From: Planctomycetota bacterium
GTDB lineage: Bacteria; Planctomycetota; UBA1135; GCA-002748355
DNA length: 33,893 nucleotides
Reading direction: 5' to 3'
Assembly: GCA_026984035.1 (NCBI GenBank)
Contig: JALSSW010000184.1
Coordinates: forward strand, 1 to 33,893
Below, in pieces: positions 3,229 through 30,078 of the stretch (position 1 is its first letter; each line of letters opens with the position of its first letter). A program made the translations under genes and the position numbers. The notes beneath the pieces were generated by a model. It ran no database searches, was not told the DNA's origin, and worked only from the letters and a program-made list of their open reading frames with translations.

Positions 3229-3795
3229 ATGGAAACGAACACAGCCCTTGACCCTCTGGTCCTGGCCGCATACAAGCGAGCCGTAAGAGAATTCGCCGGA
3301 CCGCTCAAAGGATTCTCCGCCCGGGTCTTGGGACCCGACGCAGAATGGGCGGAAGATGTTTCGCAGGATGCACTCCTGGCTCTCTATCGTCACCTGCATC
3401 AAATCCCGGAGCATTCCTGGAAACCCTGGCTCTATCGAGTCGCGCGCAACCTCTGCCTGGACCGCCTCCGGCGACGCAAACACCGCCCAAGGAATTTTCG
3501 TGACATTCGGGATGACGACAGTCCAGAGATTGCCCCCCCAACCTCATGGACTCAGAGACCCGACATCCGCCTCCAAGACAAGGAAACCCAAGAGGCTCTC
3601 GAAAAGGCAATCCAAGAACTCTCCCCAAAATTCCGAGAAGTCTATCTCCTCTGCGAACGTCAAGAGCTCAGCTATGAACAAGCGGCCAGTGTCCTCAAGA
3701 TCCCACTGAAAACCGTTTCCACTCGGCTCTTCCGAGCTCGCAAGAAATTAATCAAAGCAATGCAACCATATTTGGGTGATCATCCTCATCGTTAA
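3229..3795 (+). CDS. RNA polymerase ECF sigma factor
   Basis: This 188-residue protein is an extracytoplasmic-function sigma-70 factor. Region 2 (about residues 20-85) includes WAEDVSQDALLALYRHL and PWLYRVARNLCLDRLRRRK, the part that contacts core polymerase and the -10 element. Region 4 (about 125-180) is a helix-turn-helix beginning LSPKFREVYLL and continuing YEQAASVLKIPLKTVSTRL, which reads the -35 element. There is no region 3, as expected for ECF factors. It is followed directly by a zinc-binding anti-sigma factor, so it is probably held inactive until an envelope signal arrives. Target genes cannot be named, though nearby envelope genes are plausible. Confidence 0.95.
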   Translation: METNTALDPLVLAAYKRAVREFAGPLKGFSARVLGPDAEWAEDVSQDALLALYRHLHQIPEHSWKPWLYRVARNLCLDRLRRRKHRPRNFRDIRDDDSPEIAPPTSWTQRPDIRLQDKETQEALEKAIQELSPKFREVYLLCERQELSYEQAASVLKIPLKTVSTRLFRARKKLIKAMQPYLGDHPHR

Positions 3796-3820
3796 TTCAA
3801 CAAGTGACACCCTTCCTAAG

Positions 3821-5197
3821 ATGACGAACGGAAACCACAAACATACTGAGAGTTCATCCAAGAATCCGGCGACTCTGTCCTGCAGAGAAACCCAAGCCCT
3901 GATTTCGGAATCACTCGATCACCGCTTGCAGTCCAGCCTGGATCGGGGACTTCGCAAACACATCTTCAGCTGCCCCCCTTGCCGAAAAGTTTACCAAGAT
4001 CTTTTAGCCCTTCAGGCTTTGGTTAAGGGACAACCCGAAGATCAGGTTTCCCCCGACTTTATGGAAGTTCTCGAAAGGCGGATCGCATCAGGAGAAGGAA
4101 CGCCCACTGCCGCCCTCGATTCCCCCATTCCCCTTGCGCGAAAGTTGAAGCTCTTCAGCTCAGGTATGGCGACAGCCGCAGCACTTCTCCTCTCGGCTTG
4201 GCTTGTTCTGGATGAGATCACCCCTCCTCCCATCAAACCAGAAAACGCGCCTATTTTCGTTCAACCCGGGAACCAAAAAATGGCAATGACTCCCGGCAAG
4301 ATTTTCAGCAGTCGAGTCAGCGACAACAACTCCAACATTGGAGACATCAACAGGAGGTCTTTTTTCCAAGATTCACCTATGTCCCAGAAGGTTTTCCAGG
4401 GGACAATGAACTCCATTAACAATGAGAAACTTTCTGCTGATGCTGAAGGATTTCCCTCCATTCCCTATAGCAGAAGTCGCAGGCTGACCCCCCTCTCCAA
4501 GACTTCGGCAAAAACAACGTCTTCACCAGGCCTGCAACCCGAAAACCTCGAAAAGTTCCGGAGGCATTTTCAACCTCATACAACTCCTCTAGGAGAGACA
4601 CCCTTTGCCAGAACACAGTTCCCTGGTGACATGGATTTGGTTGACCCCTCCCTTTTTGCTCTAGGCCTCTTCAAAGGAACTTTAAAAAGCCTGGAAGACC
4701 TAAAGGCCAACACGCAGAGGTTCAAACATTTCCCACCCCATAAAGCCATTCAAGAGATCCTAAAATCCGCTCAGGAAGCACGCGACTGCACCAGCCTCCT
4801 GCTTAAATTGGACAGAAGATTACTCGACCTGAACCCCGCAAATGGAACATGGCTCAAGAAGGTCCATCACCAACTTCAAAAAGTTACGGAACTCGGCACC
4901 ACAATACAAAGCGATGGTAAGGGCGTTCGAGACTCTCTCCAGAAGATCCAGCTACTGCTGAAGGATATCCAAACGAAAGACGCCTTAAAATCCCGCGTCA
5001 CAATCCGTCTTAAGTTCGAATCCAACCTTCGGGACTCCCTTCTTGGTACTGGGATGCCCCCACCTTCCCTTCAGCGAGTCCTCAAGGTAATCTCGCGGGC
5101 ATCGGATGGTGATCCCGAAACTCCAAGCAGCTCCTTCTTCCTTTTCGGAGGTAGTGGCGAACTTCGGATCTTCGTCTTGCATGGGAAACAGAAATAG
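3821..5197 (+). CDS. ZAS-type transmembrane anti-sigma factor with long outer domain
   Basis: This protein is predicted to bind and inhibit the ECF sigma factor encoded just upstream. The N-terminus carries the zinc-binding anti-sigma signature Cys21, His47, Cys51, Cys54 (HIFSCPPC), followed by an amphipathic region. One transmembrane helix lies at about 111-130. The remaining roughly 325 residues would sit outside the cytoplasmic membrane. They are Ser/Pro-rich at first, then contain long charged helices (about 285-400) that look coiled-coil. The family usually has 200-250 residues, so the outer part is unusually large and may sense the signal. I chose the ATG at 3821; an in-frame GTG at 3776 would overlap the sigma gene by 20 bases. 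Confidence 0.88.
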   Translation: MTNGNHKHTESSSKNPATLSCRETQALISESLDHRLQSSLDRGLRKHIFSCPPCRKVYQDLLALQALVKGQPEDQVSPDFMEVLERRIASGEGTPTAALDSPIPLARKLKLFSSGMATAAALLLSAWLVLDEITPPPIKPENAPIFVQPGNQKMAMTPGKIFSSRVSDNNSNIGDINRRSFFQDSPMSQKVFQGTMNSINNEKLSADAEGFPSIPYSRSRRLTPLSKTSAKTTSSPGLQPENLEKFRRHFQPHTTPLGETPFARTQFPGDMDLVDPSLFALGLFKGTLKSLEDLKANTQRFKHFPPHKAIQEILKSAQEARDCTSLLLKLDRRLLDLNPANGTWLKKVHHQLQKVTELGTTIQSDGKGVRDSLQKIQLLLKDIQTKDALKSRVTIRLKFESNLRDSLLGTGMPPPSLQRVLKVISRASDGDPETPSSSFFLFGGSGELRIFVLHGKQK

Positions 5198-5205
5198 TTC
5201 TTAGA

Positions 5206-5559
5206 CTATCCTTTCCGCCGCCCTTTAATCTTCTTCCGTTTGTCTTTACAGAAAGGAACAAACACCAAGATTAGGGCCCCAAAAACCATAAGGGAAAAGG
5301 CTACTCTTTTGGAATGCACCAAATAGCTCTCGGGCATCTCCGAGAGGGCAAGCGCAACCTGGTTTTCATTGGGCTGCAAAAAGAAGGTCGCATACCCAAT
5401 CTGGCGGAAAACGAAGAAGGTCGAATTCACCTCTTCGCGCATGAATTTGGCAGTCTTTACCTGGCCAAAGAGGAGAAGGCCGGTCCCGACGAACAAACCG
5501 GACATGAACAGAAGAAAGCCTCGAACCAGATGAAGGTAATGTTTGGGGATGGGGATCAT
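5206..5559 (-). CDS. Small two-helix membrane protein, unknown function
   Basis: I do not recognise this 117-residue protein. It has two hydrophobic segments, at about residues 9-31 and 86-104, separated by a roughly 55-residue hydrophilic stretch. It ends in a very basic tail (KDKRKKIKGRRKG). This predicts both termini in the cytoplasm and a short outer loop. It is the last gene of the minus-strand run containing the two PilT-family ATPases, 68 bases after the second one, and converges with the anti-sigma gene at 8 bases. A membrane partner for the ATPases is possible but unproven. The ribosome-binding site is weak. Confidence 0.65.
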   Translation of the reverse strand: MIPIPKHYLHLVRGFLLFMSGLFVGTGLLLFGQVKTAKFMREEVNSTFFVFRQIGYATFFLQPNENQVALALSEMPESYLVHSKRVAFSLMVFGALILVFVPFCKDKRKKIKGRRKG

Positions 5560-5627
5560 GAAAGAAGATGATTCCCTGCTTCTTCGGAGAAAAAAAGGGC
5601 GGGGGAAAACTTACTAGAACGAAAAGA

Positions 5628-19147: not shown

Positions 19148-19903
19148 TCAGAGCTTCGAGGAGGAAGTGGGGGGGAGCAACACCCCCCGGACCTGAGCCA
19201 AGGCCACGAGTCCTTTATAAAAGGCCAAAAAGGCATCTTCTTCCGTACTCTGTTCTCCTTCTTGTCCCTCCAGCCACGCTTCCGCAAGCTTTTCTACTTT
19301 CTGGATCCGCCCATCCTCCAGGCATCGAATTAGAAGGCTTAAGTCCGCCCCTGACTCCTTCCAAAACGGCATCCCTTCTTGATCCCGGGAACAGAGCAAG
19401 TCCTCCTTCCCCCTCCAGAGCCGGACCCAAGGAGCAAGCCTCACCGAAGAACCTAGAAGATCCCCAACCGTTCCTCCCAGGTCCTGCAAATCATCCGGAT
19501 GAAGAATCTTTCCTTCTCCATTTTCGGCATAAAAGCATTGGAGCTCCAAAAGCATGCGCTCCATCCGTCCTTTCAAGCCAGCCTTGCCCTCAAACATTTC
19601 CTCTCGATAAGCGAGAACCCAAGAGAGAAAACGCTCCGCCAACTCCCGCGAACTCTGAGTCCGAGGTGGGTTTTCCCGAAGCATCTCCAACAGGAGGCCA
19701 TCGAGATCAAGCTCCTCACCCTTGACCAAAGCCTCCAGGGTCTCCTCAAAAGCAAAAGAAAGCTGACCGGAGGCTGCACCAAGAATCAACTGCTGATACA
19801 AATCGATCCTGTCCCGCTCAGGAAGAAATCGTGAGGCTTCGGAGGAAAGCTCTCTCCCCAGGATGGCATCCCGAAAGGCCAATTCAATCTCTTCCAGATT
19901 CAT
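19148..19903 (-). CDS. bufC: DUF2063-like partner of DUF692 maturase (BufC/MbnC-type)
   Basis: This 251-residue protein occupies the place of the DUF2063 partner in bufferin, methanobactin and HvfABC loci, where it pairs with the DUF692 enzyme and presents the precursor peptide. The N-terminal half fits the family loosely: an opening helix (EIELAFRDAILG), ERDRIDLYQQLI, a PPRTQSSRELAERFLSWV segment, and LLELQCFYAE. The family's usual helical signatures are eroded, so this is a divergent member, and the call rests partly on position. Its ATG overlaps the stop of the DUF692 gene in ATGA, indicating coupled translation. The C-terminal half has no recognised motif. Confidence 0.68.
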   Translation of the reverse strand: MNLEEIELAFRDAILGRELSSEASRFLPERDRIDLYQQLILGAASGQLSFAFEETLEALVKGEELDLDGLLLEMLRENPPRTQSSRELAERFLSWVLAYREEMFEGKAGLKGRMERMLLELQCFYAENGEGKILHPDDLQDLGGTVGDLLGSSVRLAPWVRLWRGKEDLLCSRDQEGMPFWKESGADLSLLIRCLEDGRIQKVEKLAEAWLEGQEGEQSTEEDAFLAFYKGLVALAQVRGVLLPPTSSSKL

Positions 19904-20799
19904 ACAGATTTCTCCACGGCATTTTTCTTGGTAAAATTTTCCTTGGAAAAACGACCCTCGGGGAAAGTCTGGTCTAAAACAGCTCCGACTTTCCGGAGTT
20001 CTGGAAGCAACTCCTCCAAGTCCGGGATGTTGAAATCCCTCTCAAGGAGGATTGAGATCGGTCGAGAACACCTGCTCACCGCATCTTCATAAAGTTCCCA
20101 GACGGCATCAATGACCGGGGCCCCGTGGGTATCCAAAAGAAGCCGCCCCTCCATTTCATGGCCCGCCATATGCATTTGCCCTACACGATCAAAGGGAATC
20201 CCATCGAGATATTCCCTTGAGGAAAACCCATGGTTCCAAGCATTGACAAAGATATTGTTCACATCGAGCAACATCCCACAGTCTCCCTCCTCCAGAACCA
20301 GGCGAACAAATTCCCATTCGGGCATCCGCCCATCCACCTCATATTCGAAGTAGCAGCTCACATTTTCAACGAGGAATGGCAGCTCCAAGAAGTCCTGAAT
20401 CATCCGAACTCTTCCCGCGACATGGGCAGCCGCTTCTTCGGTATAGGGAAGAGGAAGAAGCTCTCCGAGATATTGGTCTCCCACCCCTGTAAAGCAGAGA
20501 TGATCAGAAATCCAGAGTCCTCCCAGCTCGTGGACATAAGCCTTAAGCCGTTTTAAATAATCAAAATCAAGAGGGTCCGTAGAGCCAAGGTTTAGGGAAA
20601 TTCCATGGAAGGCAACTGGATATCGTTCGGCCGCTTCCCTTACCTGCCGGTCCAGCAAACCTCCCCTATCGATGGAATTTTCGGGGAGGATCTCCAACCA
20701 ATCAACTTCCGAACATCCTTCGAGCAGATCTTCAACATGTTTCCTACGAAAACCAAGACCTGCCCCTAATCCTGGGCACCGCAAATGTTGTTCCTTCAT
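19900..20799 (-). CDS. bufB: DUF692 multinuclear iron maturase of RiPP precursor (BufB/HvfB/MbnB family)
   Basis: This 299-residue TIM-barrel enzyme belongs to DUF692 (MbnB/TglH/ChrH), whose members use two or three iron ions and oxygen to modify cysteines of peptides, for example to oxazolone-thioamide or thiooxazole groups. Metal-ligand motifs run in order: HGISLNLGS (His65), WISDHLCF (Asp99, His100), LVENVS (Glu145), LLDVNNI (Asp179, Asn182), HMAGH (His210, His214), DTHGAPV (Asp223, His225) and LLERDFNIP (Glu253). Length is normal. GAGG lies 7 bases before the ATG. The substrate is very likely the Cys-Gly-Gly repeat peptide encoded upstream. A terminator in the 253-base gap should lower its expression relative to the precursor. 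Confidence 0.93.
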   Translation of the reverse strand: MKEQHLRCPGLGAGLGFRRKHVEDLLEGCSEVDWLEILPENSIDRGGLLDRQVREAAERYPVAFHGISLNLGSTDPLDFDYLKRLKAYVHELGGLWISDHLCFTGVGDQYLGELLPLPYTEEAAAHVAGRVRMIQDFLELPFLVENVSCYFEYEVDGRMPEWEFVRLVLEEGDCGMLLDVNNIFVNAWNHGFSSREYLDGIPFDRVGQMHMAGHEMEGRLLLDTHGAPVIDAVWELYEDAVSRCSRPISILLERDFNIPDLEELLPELRKVGAVLDQTFPEGRFSKENFTKKNAVEKSV

Positions 20800-20820
20800 T
20801 TTTTGCCTCGACCCGAACCG

Positions 20821-20866
20821 CCTTATTCACAAGATCCCGTCAAAGGGAGTTTTCTCATGAATCAGG
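20821..20866 (-). repeat. Long hairpin A between bufA and bufB
   Basis: A 46-base imperfect inverted repeat pairs CCTTATTCA (20821-20829) with TGAATCAGG (20858-20866), one mismatch. An inner TCCC/GGGA stem closes around GTCAAA. Its left arm is nearly identical to that of hairpin B, so the two look like copies of one element. It ends 21 bases before the bufB start on the transcribed strand and could affect bufB translation or message stability. Confidence 0.5.
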
Positions 20867-20894
20867 CTTGACTTGATCATGAAGGCAAAGGTAC

Positions 20895-20945
20895 AAAAAA
20901 AAAGGTTCGCGTTGTTTTTCCCTTTCAGGAAACACGCTTCGAACC
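20895..20945 (-). terminator. Intrinsic terminator between bufA and bufB
   Basis: On the minus strand a perfect GGTTCG/CGAACC outer stem (20940-20945 with 20904-20909) encloses an inner CGTGTTTCC/GGAAAAACAACG stem. It is followed at once by nine U residues (20895-20903). This is a textbook rho-independent terminator for the bufA transcript, 108 bases after its stop. Five T follow the stem on the plus strand too, but no plus-strand gene approaches from the left nearby. Partial read-through would explain how bufB and bufC are expressed. Confidence 0.8.
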
Positions 20946-20960
20946 CTTTTTCGCCGCCCA

Positions 20961-21011
20961 CCTTATTCATGAGATCGTTTACAAAAACGAGCTCGTGATC
21001 ATGGATAAAGG
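20961..21011 (-). repeat. Long hairpin B downstream of bufA
   Basis: A 51-base inverted repeat has an outer stem of about 12 bp (20961-20972 with 20999-21011, one bulge, one G-T pair) and an apical TCGTTT/AAACGA stem with a four-base loop. The left arm CCTTATTCA followed by AGATC nearby matches hairpin A. It lies about 42 bases after the bufA stop and directly before the intrinsic terminator, where it could protect the 3' end of the bufA message. Confidence 0.55.
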
Positions 21012-21052
21012 GGGGGGGAGACCTAAGTTAGTTTTGGCCTAGATCTTGGTGA

Positions 21053-21331
21053 CTATTTTTTGCCGCCGCAACCTTTGGCTCCACCACAACCTTTGGCCCC
21101 ACCACAACTTTTTGAGCCGTCTTTTTTCTTGGCTCCACCGCAACCCTTAGCTCCACCACAGCCTTTTGAGCCGCCGCAACCTTTTTTTCCCCCACAGCTC
21201 TTTTGGCTCATGTCGCTCTTTGAGCTTTTCTGGCTCGGACTACAGGATGTGAAGGAAAATGTCGCGAGAGCACCGGTCACAAGCGCAGCGGTTGAAAGAT
21301 TTCTTAGGGTAGAGAATGCCTTCTTTTTCAT
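21053..21331 (-). CDS. bufA: Bufferin-type RiPP precursor with Cys-Gly-Gly repeats
   Basis: This 92-residue peptide is the likely substrate of the DUF692 enzyme downstream. An export signal (about 1-28) ends in FTSC, possibly a lipobox with Cys30. The mature part is a low-complexity array of K-G/S-C-G-G units. Cysteines stand at 46, 52, 58, 64, then 76, 82 and 88, a strict six-residue period in which the unit expected at 70 is replaced by KKDGSK. Bufferins and HvfA-type peptides are exported, have cysteines modified to sulfur heterocycles, and bind copper. Copper binding here is inferred from that. AGGAA lies about 7 bases before the ATG. It is the first gene of its operon. Confidence 0.82.
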   Translation of the reverse strand: MKKKAFSTLRNLSTAALVTGALATFSFTSCSPSQKSSKSDMSQKSCGGKKGCGGSKGCGGAKGCGGAKKKDGSKSCGGAKGCGGAKGCGGKK

Positions 21332-26278: not shown

Positions 26279-27046
26279 ATGGACCGATCAAAATCTCCCA
26301 TTCTTCTTGGCAGTGTCCCCTACCAGGTGGGTGCCCCTCTTCTTGAGGGTCTCACAGCCCATCCCGAGGTGGAACTCCGCCAACAGGTTCCGACCGAACT
26401 CATAAAAAGCCTGAGAAAAGGCAAAATCGAGGGTGCCCTCGTTTCATCCATTGAAGCCTTTCGAAGCGAGGGGCTTTTCGCACTCGGAGACCTTGGGATT
26501 GCTGCCGATGGGGAAGTCGGTTCCGTCCGCCTCTTCTGCCGAACAAAGCCAGAAGAAGTTCAAAGCCTAGCCATTGATTCCTCCAGTGCGACCTCTGTAG
26601 CCCTCAGCCATATTCTTCTCCGAAAACGATTCGGCGCCCGGATCCAAAGAGAGATTCCGATTTCACCAACCATTGACCCTGATACCATTGATGCAGACGC
26701 AGTCCTTTTGATTGGTGATGCGGGAGTCGCTGCGCACAGCAAGCGCCCCCATATCCTTGACCTCGGCGAAGAATGGACCCAATGGAAGGGGCTTCCCTTT
26801 GTCTTCGCCCTCTGGCTCTTCCGAACTTCCAGGGTCCGGGTTCTGAAGGCCGGGACGATCCTCCATGCTTGTCGAGAGAAAGCCCGCCTCTTTGGAACTA
26901 GAGATGGAACCGGCGGCAAGATCCGTCATGATTTAGATGCGAGGTTCCTTTCTGGACTCGCTGCTTTTCATCAAGAAGCCGCCTCCCTGAGGCTTTGCGA
27001 TGCGTCCATCGAACCGACTTGGATCCATTCGGAACAAAATGGATAA
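26279..27046 (+). CDS. mqnA: Chorismate dehydratase (menaquinone biosynthesis, futalosine pathway)
   Basis: This 255-residue protein matches MqnA, which removes water from chorismate to give 3-enolpyruvoyl-benzoate, the first step of the futalosine route to menaquinone. Family marks are the opening LGSVPYQVGAPLLEGL, the helix PTELIKSLRKGKIEGALVSS, IAADGEVGSVRLF, LAIDSSSATSVAL for the substrate pocket, and the signature LGEEWTQWKGLPFVFALW. Length is slightly below the usual 270-290. No other mqn gene is in the window. It starts a plus-strand run that continues with topoisomerase VI, 33 bases downstream. The ATG at 26279 lacks a strong ribosome-binding site. Confidence 0.87.
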   Translation: MDRSKSPILLGSVPYQVGAPLLEGLTAHPEVELRQQVPTELIKSLRKGKIEGALVSSIEAFRSEGLFALGDLGIAADGEVGSVRLFCRTKPEEVQSLAIDSSSATSVALSHILLRKRFGARIQREIPISPTIDPDTIDADAVLLIGDAGVAAHSKRPHILDLGEEWTQWKGLPFVFALWLFRTSRVRVLKAGTILHACREKARLFGTRDGTGGKIRHDLDARFLSGLAAFHQEAASLRLCDASIEPTWIHSEQNG

Positions 27047-27079: not shown

Positions 27080-28840
27080 ATGAATCACAGACAAAAAGAG
27101 CTGTTTCCAATTTTTGGTGCGGAGCCTGTAAAGGAACCTACCCCACAGGAATCAGCCGCACAGGAACAAGCCATACAGATGACTGAGACAAAAAAGAAAA
27201 AAACAAAAAGAAGAGCCACGGCCGAGAGCATGGCCAAGAAACAACGCGAGATTTCGGTCTCTGAGTTCTTCACAAAAAACAGACATCTCCTGGGTTTCGA
27301 CAATCCCCGAAAGGCCCTGCTCACCGGAGTCAAAGAAGCCGTGGACAATAGCCTCGACGCATGCGAAGAGGCCGGGATTCTCCCGGATATCCTTGTAGAA
27401 ATCCGCCCCATTCCCAGCCAAGAACACCGATTCACCATGATTGTCGAGGACAATGGCCCTGGCATTGTTAAGGCCCAAATCCCCAATATCTTTGGAAAGC
27501 TCCTCTATGGCTCCAAATTCCATCGCCTTAAACAGAGCCGCGGACAACAAGGGATAGGGATCTCGGCTGCGGGAATGTATGGGCAACTCACTACTGGAAA
27601 TCCAGTTCGGATCATTTCCAGGACGGGAAGCCGAAGGCCGGCTCACCGCTTTGAGGTCCGGATCAACACAACAAAAAACAAGCCCGAGTTCACCGATGAA
27701 GAATGCGAATGGGATCGCCCCCATGGAACCCGTGTCGAAATTGACATGCAAGCTGAGTTTCGAAAGGGCTCACGTTCCGTGGGGGAGTACCTTAAACAGA
27801 CTGCAGTAGCTAACCCACATGTCCGCATCGTGTATCGTTTTCCCGGAAACAATGAAGTCTTTTATGACCGCGCTGTTACGGAGCTTCCTCCCGAAACCAA
27901 GGAGATTCGGCCCCATCCCCATGGGGTTGAACTAGGCCTTCTAATTAAGCTGCTCAGCGACAGCAAAGAACGCACCCTAAGTGCATTCCTCCAAAAAGAA
28001 TTCAGCCGTGTCTCTGCGGCAGTGGCCAAAAAAATCTGTGAAGGCGCAAAACTCTCTTCCCGTGCCCACCCCAAGAGGATCGCCCGCCAAGAGGCGGATG
28101 CCCTTCATCAATCGATCCAAAGCACCAAGATCATGGCCCCGCCCACAAACTGCATTGCGCCCATCGGCGAGGATGTCCTCTTGGCTGGACTTAAAAAAGA
28201 GATCAAGGCCGATTTCTACGTGGCTGCAACCCGTCCCCCCTCCGTATACCGAGGCAACCCATTCTTGGTCGAAGCCGCCCTCGCCTTCGGACGTGAAGGG
28301 GATACCATGGAGGTAACCGAGACGGGCAAGATCGTCGCGCGAAAGAAAGCAGCCTCAGCCGATACAGAGCTTCTTGGGAATGCAGATGAAGCCATTCGCC
28401 TGGTTCGCTTTGCCAACCGCGTCCCTCTTCAATACCAGCAAAGTGCCTGCTCCATCTCTAAGGGAGTCATTAGTATCAACTGGCGTTCGTATGGAATGCA
28501 GCAACCCAGAGGGGCACTTCCCATCGGCCCCATGGTCTTGGTGGTTCATATTGCCTCAGTTTGGGTTCCCTTCACTTCCGAAAGCAAGGAGGCAATCGCT
28601 TCCTATCCCGAAATCCTGAAGGAGATCAAGCTAGCTGTCCAAGAATGCGGTCGCAAGCTGGGAACCCACATCCGCAAAGGCAAACGGATTGCCACAGAAC
28701 ATCGCAAGCGATCCTATATCGAGCTTTACCTCCCACATATCGGGATCGGACTCCAAGAGATCTTGAACTTTGATGACAAGACGCGGGATGAAGATGTAGA
28801 AATCCTTCGCGGGATCCTGGAAAGGAGCCGCAAGATCTAG
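27080..28840 (+). CDS. top6B: DNA topoisomerase VI subunit B
   Basis: This 586-residue protein is the GHKL ATPase subunit of type IIB topoisomerase VI, which passes one duplex through another to relax supercoils and unlink DNA. ATP-site motifs are [11 protein letters not shown] (catalytic Glu86, Asn90), VEDNGPGI (Asp124) and [18 protein letters not shown] (152-169). A helix-two-turn-helix region (about 285-370) and the transducer domain follow ([20 protein letters not shown]). The N-terminus carries about 55 extra Lys/Glu-rich residues, so M34 or M51 are possible starts. AGGA precedes the ATG at 27080. The partner subunit A gene begins 77 bases downstream, completing an A2B2 enzyme. Confidence 0.95.
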
Positions 28841-28882
28841 AAGAGGAATCCTTACTAGAAAATAGCGGGAAACAGAAAACCC

Positions 28883-28899
28883 CGAGGAAAGCCCCCTCG
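28883..28899 (+). promoter_or_regulatory. Small hairpin just before top6A
   Basis: A perfect 5-bp stem CGAGG/CCTCG (28883-28887 with 28895-28899) and a seven-A run lie 18 bases before the top6A start. They could influence its translation, which has only a weak ribosome-binding site. Evidence is limited to the inverted repeat. Confidence 0.2.
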
Positions 28900-28917
28900 A
28901 AAAAAACGGAACCATCA

Positions 28918-30078
28918 ATGGCAACAAAACGAAGAAAAGTCCGCAAAGCAAGATCACGTCCTCTTGAAGCTCTCGACAAAAGAACCCTCAAATGTATCAA
29001 GGATTCCGCAATTAAGATCCACGAGACGATTCAAAAGAAAAAGAAGCCGGAGATCGTCTTTCCCGTTCGTTCTCTCAAGAACGTGAAGTACGAAAAAAAG
29101 GTCGGCTACTTCCAGCTTGGGCGCGGTCGAAAGAGGCGTGACCTGACTTTCAATTCCGTGAAAGCCTTTGCCCAAATGCTCCGAATGATGGCGGCTTCTA
29201 TGGAGTTGATCGAAACTGATGACACCGCAACCAAGAGGGAGGCCTATTACAACTCCAAAAACTGGGGAGAGGCTAAGTTTAAGGAGCAAACCGAGTCCGA
29301 TACGGTCATGGATGACATCGAAGCCATGTTCAGCCTCCAGAAGATTTCCCGCGAACAACTCCGATTTAAGCCTGCTGAACATGGAGGATCGGTTGCGGGC
29401 AATCTCATCGTCGTCGACAGGGATCTGGAGACCGGTGAACGGGAAGAAATAGACTGCACACGAATGGGCTCATCCGCCTGGCGCATTCCCGCGCGAGTAG
29501 AGCATCTAGACTTCAAGACAAAAGCGGACTTCATCCTCGCCATTGAGACCAACGGAATGTATGAGCGACTTTCCTCCCACAAGTTTTGGAGGACCCACAA
29601 CTGCATCCTTGTTGAAATGGGAGGAGTCCCCACTCGAGCCTGTCGGCGATTCCTCCGCCTCCTCAGCGAAAAAAAGAAGATTCCCGTCTATGCCTTTGTC
29701 GACTGCGACCCCTACGGAATCGCTAATATTTATCGCTCTCTCAAGGTGGGATCTGGCAACGCTGCTCACATCAACAATTTTTTCTGTGTCCCTGGGGCAA
29801 AATTCTTAGGGGTGACCCCACAGGACATCGTGGATTACGGACTCAGAGAGAAGGACGCGGTCCATCCCCTCAAAGAGGTGGACATCAAGCGGGCCAAGGA
29901 TGCCCTCAAAAATGATCCTTTTTTCCAAAGCCACCGCCCATGGAAAAAAGCCTTAGAACAACTTCTCAAAATGGGGATCCGCGCAGAGCAACAGGCTTTT
30001 GCAGCCTACGATCTTAATTTTGTCACCCGCGAATACCTTCCTGAGAAGTTGAAGAATCCCAGTTCCTTCCTACCCTGA
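28918..30078 (+). CDS. top6A: DNA topoisomerase VI subunit A (Spo11 family)
   Basis: This 386-residue protein is the DNA-cleaving subunit of topoisomerase VI, homologous to Spo11. The 5Y-CAP domain holds the cleaving tyrosine in TKREAYYNS, most likely Tyr111. The Toprim domain shows Glu210 (LAIETNGMYERL) and the DxD pair Asp262/Asp264 (VDCDPYGI), which bind magnesium. Length is close to archaeal subunit A (about 370-390). A basic N-terminus (KRRKVRKARSR) is extra. With all catalytic residues in both subunits, the pair looks functional. Archaea often have the two genes adjacent as here, with B before A. Confidence 0.95.
   Translation: MATKRRKVRKARSRPLEALDKRTLKCIKDSAIKIHETIQKKKKPEIVFPVRSLKNVKYEKKVGYFQLGRGRKRRDLTFNSVKAFAQMLRMMAASMELIETDDTATKREAYYNSKNWGEAKFKEQTESDTVMDDIEAMFSLQKISREQLRFKPAEHGGSVAGNLIVVDRDLETGEREEIDCTRMGSSAWRIPARVEHLDFKTKADFILAIETNGMYERLSSHKFWRTHNCILVEMGGVPTRACRRFLRLLSEKKKIPVYAFVDCDPYGIANIYRSLKVGSGNAAHINNFFCVPGAKFLGVTPQDIVDYGLREKDAVHPLKEVDIKRAKDALKNDPFFQSHRPWKKALEQLLKMGIRAEQQAFAAYDLNFVTREYLPEKLKNPSSFLP

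Follow-up and report, generated by a model that had tools for sequence, protein, structure and literature searches.

Gadgil et al. distinguish three types of precursor, namely DUF2282, Lys-Cys (EGKCG) and Cys-Lys precursors (PMC13097082). The enzymes that act on them differ at two active-site positions: those of the Lys-Cys type carry Arg15-Arg16 and Phe250 in the numbering of FonB, whereas in those of the Cys-Lys type the conservation of Arg16 is lost and position 250 is occupied by Asp (PMC13097082). In its own repeat, FonB tolerates only Gly or Ala after the Cys and forms a 5-thiooxazole, which is the product of all characterised MNIO-PME1 systems, and a single modification was reported for a substrate that carries an NVCGG motif (PMC13097082). 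With respect to lipidation, about 16% of the Buf2 precursors are predicted lipoproteins (PMC12452194), and the oxazolin NedA, made in E. coli, was isolated in triacylated form with a loss of 4 Da on each EGKCG motif (PMC12636315).

Here, a stretch of 33,893 nucleotides from a Planctomycetota bacterium (contig JALSSW010000184.1), referred to as the window, was analyzed for a locus that had been predicted to be a bufferin-type RiPP triad of precursor, MNIO and DUF2063-type partner. The three open reading frames of this triad could be identified on the minus strand, with the following features:

21053..21331, minus strand: precursor peptide gene, 92 aa, with a lipoprotein-type signal peptide, a Ser/Lys-rich linker and eight six-residue units (seven CGG)
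21245..21331, minus strand: predicted signal peptide (residues 1-29), with the lipobox residues F-T-S as its last three before Cys30 (PROSITE-like pattern)
21242..21244, minus strand: codon of Cys30, the predicted lipidation site (lipobox pattern)
21056..21199, minus strand: core of the precursor, whose seven Cys are the likely MNIO targets
21110..21127, minus strand: degenerate unit KKDGSK (alignment with the intact GCGGSK of the congener G001)
20894..20951, minus strand: hairpin followed by a U-run in the gap between precursor and MNIO genes, likely a partial terminator (attenuator; folding z-scores)
19900..20799, minus strand: MNIO maturase (DUF692, MbnB_TglH_ChrH), 299 aa (Pfam profile, residue alignment)
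19148..19903, minus strand: divergent DUF2063-type MNIO partner, 251 aa (sub-threshold DUF2063, fold match)

The start of the partner gene overlaps the MNIO stop codon by 4 nt, and the precursor and MNIO genes are separated by a gap of 250 bp. The lack of a DoxX-like fourth gene, noted earlier, was confirmed, as no DoxX (PF07681) was found at the locus or anywhere else in the ~90% complete assembly. The locus belongs to a known family of bacterial metal-binding peptides, of which it is a new sequence variant, and does not represent a new kind of system. With a probability of about 0.72, its product is taken to be a captophorin of the oxazolin side, which would be a lipidated peptidic thiooxazole metallophore for copper.

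The oxazolin, fontiphorin and gonophorin systems (HvfABC, FonABC) are similar to the locus in their Cys-Gly repeat core, signal peptide, MNIO with Arg-Arg and Asp-Phe, and DUF2063-type partner. Their unit is EGKCG with a period of 5 (or two EGKCG per 17 residues), whereas the unit in the window is G/S-C-G-G-x-K with a period of 6. The window locus further differs in that Lys is not adjacent to Cys, DoxX is absent, a lipobox is present and the precursor was unmatched at E 10 by the HvfA models NF050137 and NF050188. NedABC of Neisseria dentiae (PMC12636315) has a lipoprotein signal, a Cys-Gly repeat core, an MNIO and a partner in common with the locus, but it carries EGKCG motifs and stems from Pseudomonadota; the triacylation of NedA and its loss of 4 Da per motif are experimental. 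Bufferin-2 (BufA2, Buf_6/12Cys) shares Sec export and the gene order precursor-MNIO-partner; it is set apart by a CKG-type core with 6 or 12 Cys and an MNIO that lacks the second Arg, and an NCBIfam profile search gave no match of the window precursor to BufA2 (NF050166). Bufferin-1 (DUF2282) likewise has an MNIO, a DUF2063 partner and a Sec signal. It contains four conserved Cys, whereas the window precursor contains seven core Cys in repeats and gave no DUF2282 match in Pfam or NCBIfam. In the same model searches, relatives from the order matched BufA2, and three Cys-Gly reference precursors matched the HvfA domain model NF050137. New at the locus are the G/S-C-G-G core with a period of 6, the pairing of an oxazolin-like active site with such a core in this lineage, and the very divergent partner.

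The precursor consists of MKKKAFSTLRNLSTAALVTGALATFSFTSCSPSQKSSKSDMSQK followed by the units SCGGKK, GCGGSK, GCGGAK, GCGGAK, KKDGSK, SCGGAK, GCGGAK and GCGGKK. All seven CGG share one phase of 6; when the residues were shuffled 200,000 times, no more than three did so, and the predicted period-6 precursor clearly stands. The predicted replacement of one unit was also observed: the fifth position is taken by KKDGSK, opposite which G001 has an intact GCGGSK in the alignment. Each of the seven core Cys is followed by Gly, and Lys is located at positions -2 and +4 of most of them, which is neither the Lys-Cys nor the Cys-Lys register. Since the precursor has no BufA2, HvfA or DUF2282 match and a Lys register of neither type, it is placed as a captophorin that would work on the oxazolin side and lies outside the curated precursor families. 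At the DNA level, the tandem repeat registers only 2.4 copies in the precursor gene, indicating that it is maintained at the protein level and does not stem from recent DNA slippage. The repeat was also considered as a DNA-level artefact; this was rejected, as the 2.4 DNA-like copies are accompanied by a protein repeat that is kept through synonymous change.

In the congeneric genome G001, the triad has the same genes, gene order and neighbors as in the window, and the G001 precursor contains six CGG and no degenerate unit. Comparison of the window with G001 resulted in a dN of 0.045 and a dS of 1.83 for the precursor and in dN values of 0.11 for the MNIO, 0.27 for the partner and 0.22 for the neighboring DUF72 gene, for which dS was saturated; of these four genes, that of the precursor is under the strongest constraint. 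A locus in G222, from another family of the phylum, encodes MKDLKKKLSVGTLAVAISLGGLSLAVTGC, a linker and repeated SCGGDK units, followed by an MNIO and a partner that scores above the DUF2063 cut-off. Given the syntenic triad in G001 and the similar CGGDK/lipobox/MNIO/DUF2063 locus in G222, it is concluded from the sequence comparison that the precursor is not a chance ORF. Homologous loci that pair the DUF692 enzyme with a different peptide would have spoken against the original prediction; they were found among distant homologues only, while the close orthologue in G001 keeps the peptide.

The DNA pattern CGGxKxCGG was searched in 154 genomes of the order and in 392 genomes sampled from the phylum. 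MNIO-linked CGG repeats were identified only in the window genome and G001 among the former and in G222 among the latter, and the class of G222 (6 genomes) contained no further MNIO-linked CGG locus. Pattern matches in G071, G136, G293, G380, G416 and G480 were discarded as unrelated to the MNIO-linked CGG precursors. The match in G071 (C41, 14125-14204; L084, L087) has six HCGGxx units (CGGQQ/CGGRK/CGGQK) with a period of 6 in an open frame that is not linked to an MNIO, and may be non-coding.

The recurrence of the CGG lipoprotein next to an MNIO in G001 and in another family, together with the covariation of the CGG core and the enzyme active site (see below), makes it highly improbable that the lipoprotein is unmodified, with a metal-binding or structural role, and lies beside the MNIO gene by accident, a reading for which the 250-bp gap with its terminator-like hairpin might be quoted.

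The signal peptide of the precursor was judged by pattern and hydrophobicity, and lipoprotein status was assigned on sequence criteria. Cys30 fits a PROSITE-like lipobox (FTSC), as had been suggested, and this candidate lipobox is kept in G001 (LSSC, same position) and G222 (VTGC, similar). Genes for both Lgt and LspA are present in the genome. The product of the precursor gene is probably an exported, membrane-anchored peptide. The original prediction had added that a membrane-tethered peptide would set the locus apart from the bufferins described so far, which is outdated in view of the predicted lipoproteins among Buf2 precursors (~16%, PMC12452194) and of lipidated NedA (PMC12636315). Among the Buf2-like precursors of the window's order (L052-L073, L075 set), 19 of 21 show the strict lipobox pattern, far above the ~16% for Buf2 overall.

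The 299-aa protein was identified as an MNIO by Pfam (PF05114, E 3.5e-96), and sequence matches were obtained to the solved structures of TglH, MbnB and the DUF692 protein 3BWW. Across 74 homologues, no variation was seen at the metal-ligand positions H65, H100, E145, D179, N181, H210, D223, H225 and E253 or at the catalytic base, D255. The window MNIO also has H214, a residue that varies in 3 of the 74. By these sequence criteria, the identity of the enzyme as an MNIO with complete metal ligands, as predicted, is beyond doubt. The alignment further showed that Arg18-Arg19 and Asp255-Phe256 of the window MNIO correspond to Arg15-Arg16 and Asp249-Phe250 of FonB.

At the position of FonB Arg16 (R19), Arg was found in 3 of 74 MNIOs, those of the window, G001 and G222, which are exactly the CGG loci. 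The Phe250 position is Phe in the window and G001 and Asn in G222. Proteobacterial reference loci were drawn from plasmid records (13 loci), and Arg16 together with Phe250 was present only in the three with Cys-Gly repeats. When precursors were scored, Arg was found in 6 of 7 Cys-Gly loci and in none of the 25 remaining loci (Fisher p 7.7e-6, without correction for relatedness). The sole exception is L011 (Myxococcales), in which the precursor gene upstream of the MNIO gene (4703-5581) encodes a lipoprotein-like peptide with NGCGAK/SCGAK/GCGSK repeats and the MNIO lacks the Arg and Phe signature.

In the phylogenetic tree, the MNIOs of the window and G001 group with oxazolin-type MNIOs with a support of 98/92, and of 96/88 once the two signature columns were removed, a grouping that could partly be due to long-branch attraction, because the enzyme branches are long. 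The position of G222 in this tree is uncertain, and one CGG clade, with a single origin of all CGG precursors, was neither shown nor rejected (p-AU 0.475). Nearly all relatives in the window's order have Cys-Lys precursors of the bufferin-2 type. Two further kinds of locus were noted in the comparison set. Acidobacteriota loci L025 and L036 encode Lys-rich precursors in which GCGGKGGCGSK is mixed with repeated NSCKGKDGCKGKDGKKDK units. The oxazolin-type cluster L116, on plasmid pPALO11 of Pseudomonas aeruginosa, comprises a precursor with GSCGG/GSCGA units, an MNIO, a DUF2063 protein and DoxX, and adjoins genes for an ECF-type sigma factor and a zf-HC2 protein.

These results bear on the label bufferin-type, of which the RiPP triad is retained and the placement within the bufferins is not, since both the enzyme tree and the active-site residues put the locus on the oxazolin/EGKCG side and not with Buf1 or Buf2. 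It could still be argued that the locus is a divergent bufferin-2, in which the Cys-Lys lipoprotein precursor ancestral in the order has decayed to a simple CGG repeat and the enzyme is still a bufferin maturase. The lipobox-bearing Buf2-like precursors of the order relatives (19/21) have similar signal peptides, the core of the L075 precursor is simplified, repetitive and Buf2-like, and the window MNIO scores slightly higher with the curated NCBIfam model for BufB (297 bits, cut-off 310) than with that for HvfB (284 bits, cut-off 360). However, L075 still reaches 29.5 bits with BufA2, whereas the window precursor gives no match, and the MNIO, with its RR and DF residues, is found in the tree among oxazolin-type enzymes and not among the Buf2 enzymes of the order. 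A decayed bufferin-2 is considered unlikely.

The partner had been described as a divergent DUF2063 protein. This label is right, because its DUF2063 score in Pfam is 21.8 bits and the cut-off is 27.2. With a profile built from the partners of related loci it reached 4.4 bits, compared with 126 to 327 for those partners themselves; a full-length alignment to them could nonetheless be obtained. A phmmer search of the partner against the PDB gave no match. In the structural model, the helical N-terminal half has a pLDDT of about 80-90 and the C-terminal (RRE) half is poorly modelled. The top PDB fold matches of this model are two entries of TglI, the partner of the MNIO TglH, with a probability of 0.99 but an E of 0.45. 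Because the sequence is so divergent (4.4 bits), the function of the partner is assigned by its position and the weak fold match.

Such an extremely divergent partner, together with a register absent from characterised substrates, in which -1 and +1 are both free of Lys, would fit an MNIO that makes a different modification on G-C-G-G, such as an oxazolone-thioamide or some other oxidation of the Cys, giving a new chemotype with another metal or function. This appears quite improbable, as the characterised MNIO-PME1 systems all give 5-thiooxazole (PMC13097082) and the active-site residues are those of FonB. For the thiooxazole metallophore preferred here, chemistry and function are taken from characterised relatives (PMC13097082), and by this analogy MNIO and partner very likely turn the precursor Cys into copper-binding rings.

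The gap between the precursor and MNIO genes of the window folds better than 200 of 200 shuffles (z -4.7), and the hairpin alone has a z of -2.7. In G001, a different hairpin followed by a U8 run is located at the same place, with a whole-gap z of -0.9, which is no better than shuffles. The intergenic DNA itself is not conserved between the window and G001. The hairpin at 20894..20951 was not listed in a consensus terminator scan, and the sole Rfam hit in the region, to a eukaryotic snoRNA, is attributed to chance. From folding and position, the hairpin is likely an attenuator that lets the precursor exceed the enzyme. An imperfect 19-nt direct repeat (84%; 20818-20836 and 20958-20976) was also observed in the window gap; the G001 gap is shorter and largely unalignable there.

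The following mechanism is proposed. Because of the attenuator hairpin, more precursor than enzyme would probably be made. The partner would recruit or hold the precursor in the cytoplasm, where the MNIO would oxidise all seven Cys in the G/S-C-G-G units of the core, converting them to 5-thiooxazoles with a predicted loss of 4 Da each and 28 Da in total. The modified peptide would then be exported by Sec, diacylated at Cys30 by Lgt and relieved of its signal peptide by LspA. The expected result is a 63-residue copper-binding tail that is tethered to the membrane and sequesters copper at the cell envelope.

No copper or heavy-metal genes were recognised beside the locus or in the window. For the captophorin class, a copper role is supported by two plasmid-borne bufferin clusters, one of which (L109) adjoins a heavy-metal P-type ATPase with a MerR regulator and the other (L112) a copper-resistance multicopper oxidase. 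Elsewhere in the window, an ECF-type sigma factor gene followed by a gene for a zf-HC2 (anti-sigma-like) protein was found at 3229-5197, and adjoining genes for the B and A subunits of DNA topoisomerase VI were found at 27080-30078, beside a menaquinone-biosynthesis (MqnA-type) gene (26279-27046).

It is tentatively suggested that the G-C-G-G period-6 lipoproteins might be a separate thiooxazole metallophore family of this lineage. Its recognition register would be distinct in that the Cys has no Lys on either side, an extremely divergent partner would be specific to it, and a regular array of copper-binding heterocycles would be fixed to the envelope. The near-perfect six-residue repeat, with one natural Cys-less unit, is a handy substrate for studies of processivity and spacing. 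The locus also allows the published proposal that substrate choice depends on two active-site residues to be examined in nature, as Arg-Arg marks all but one of the Cys-Gly loci in an independent sample. On the reading preferred here, the peptidic thiooxazole metallophores would be extended to a minimal Cys-Gly-Gly repeat, in a lineage that is mostly of the Cys-Lys bufferin type.
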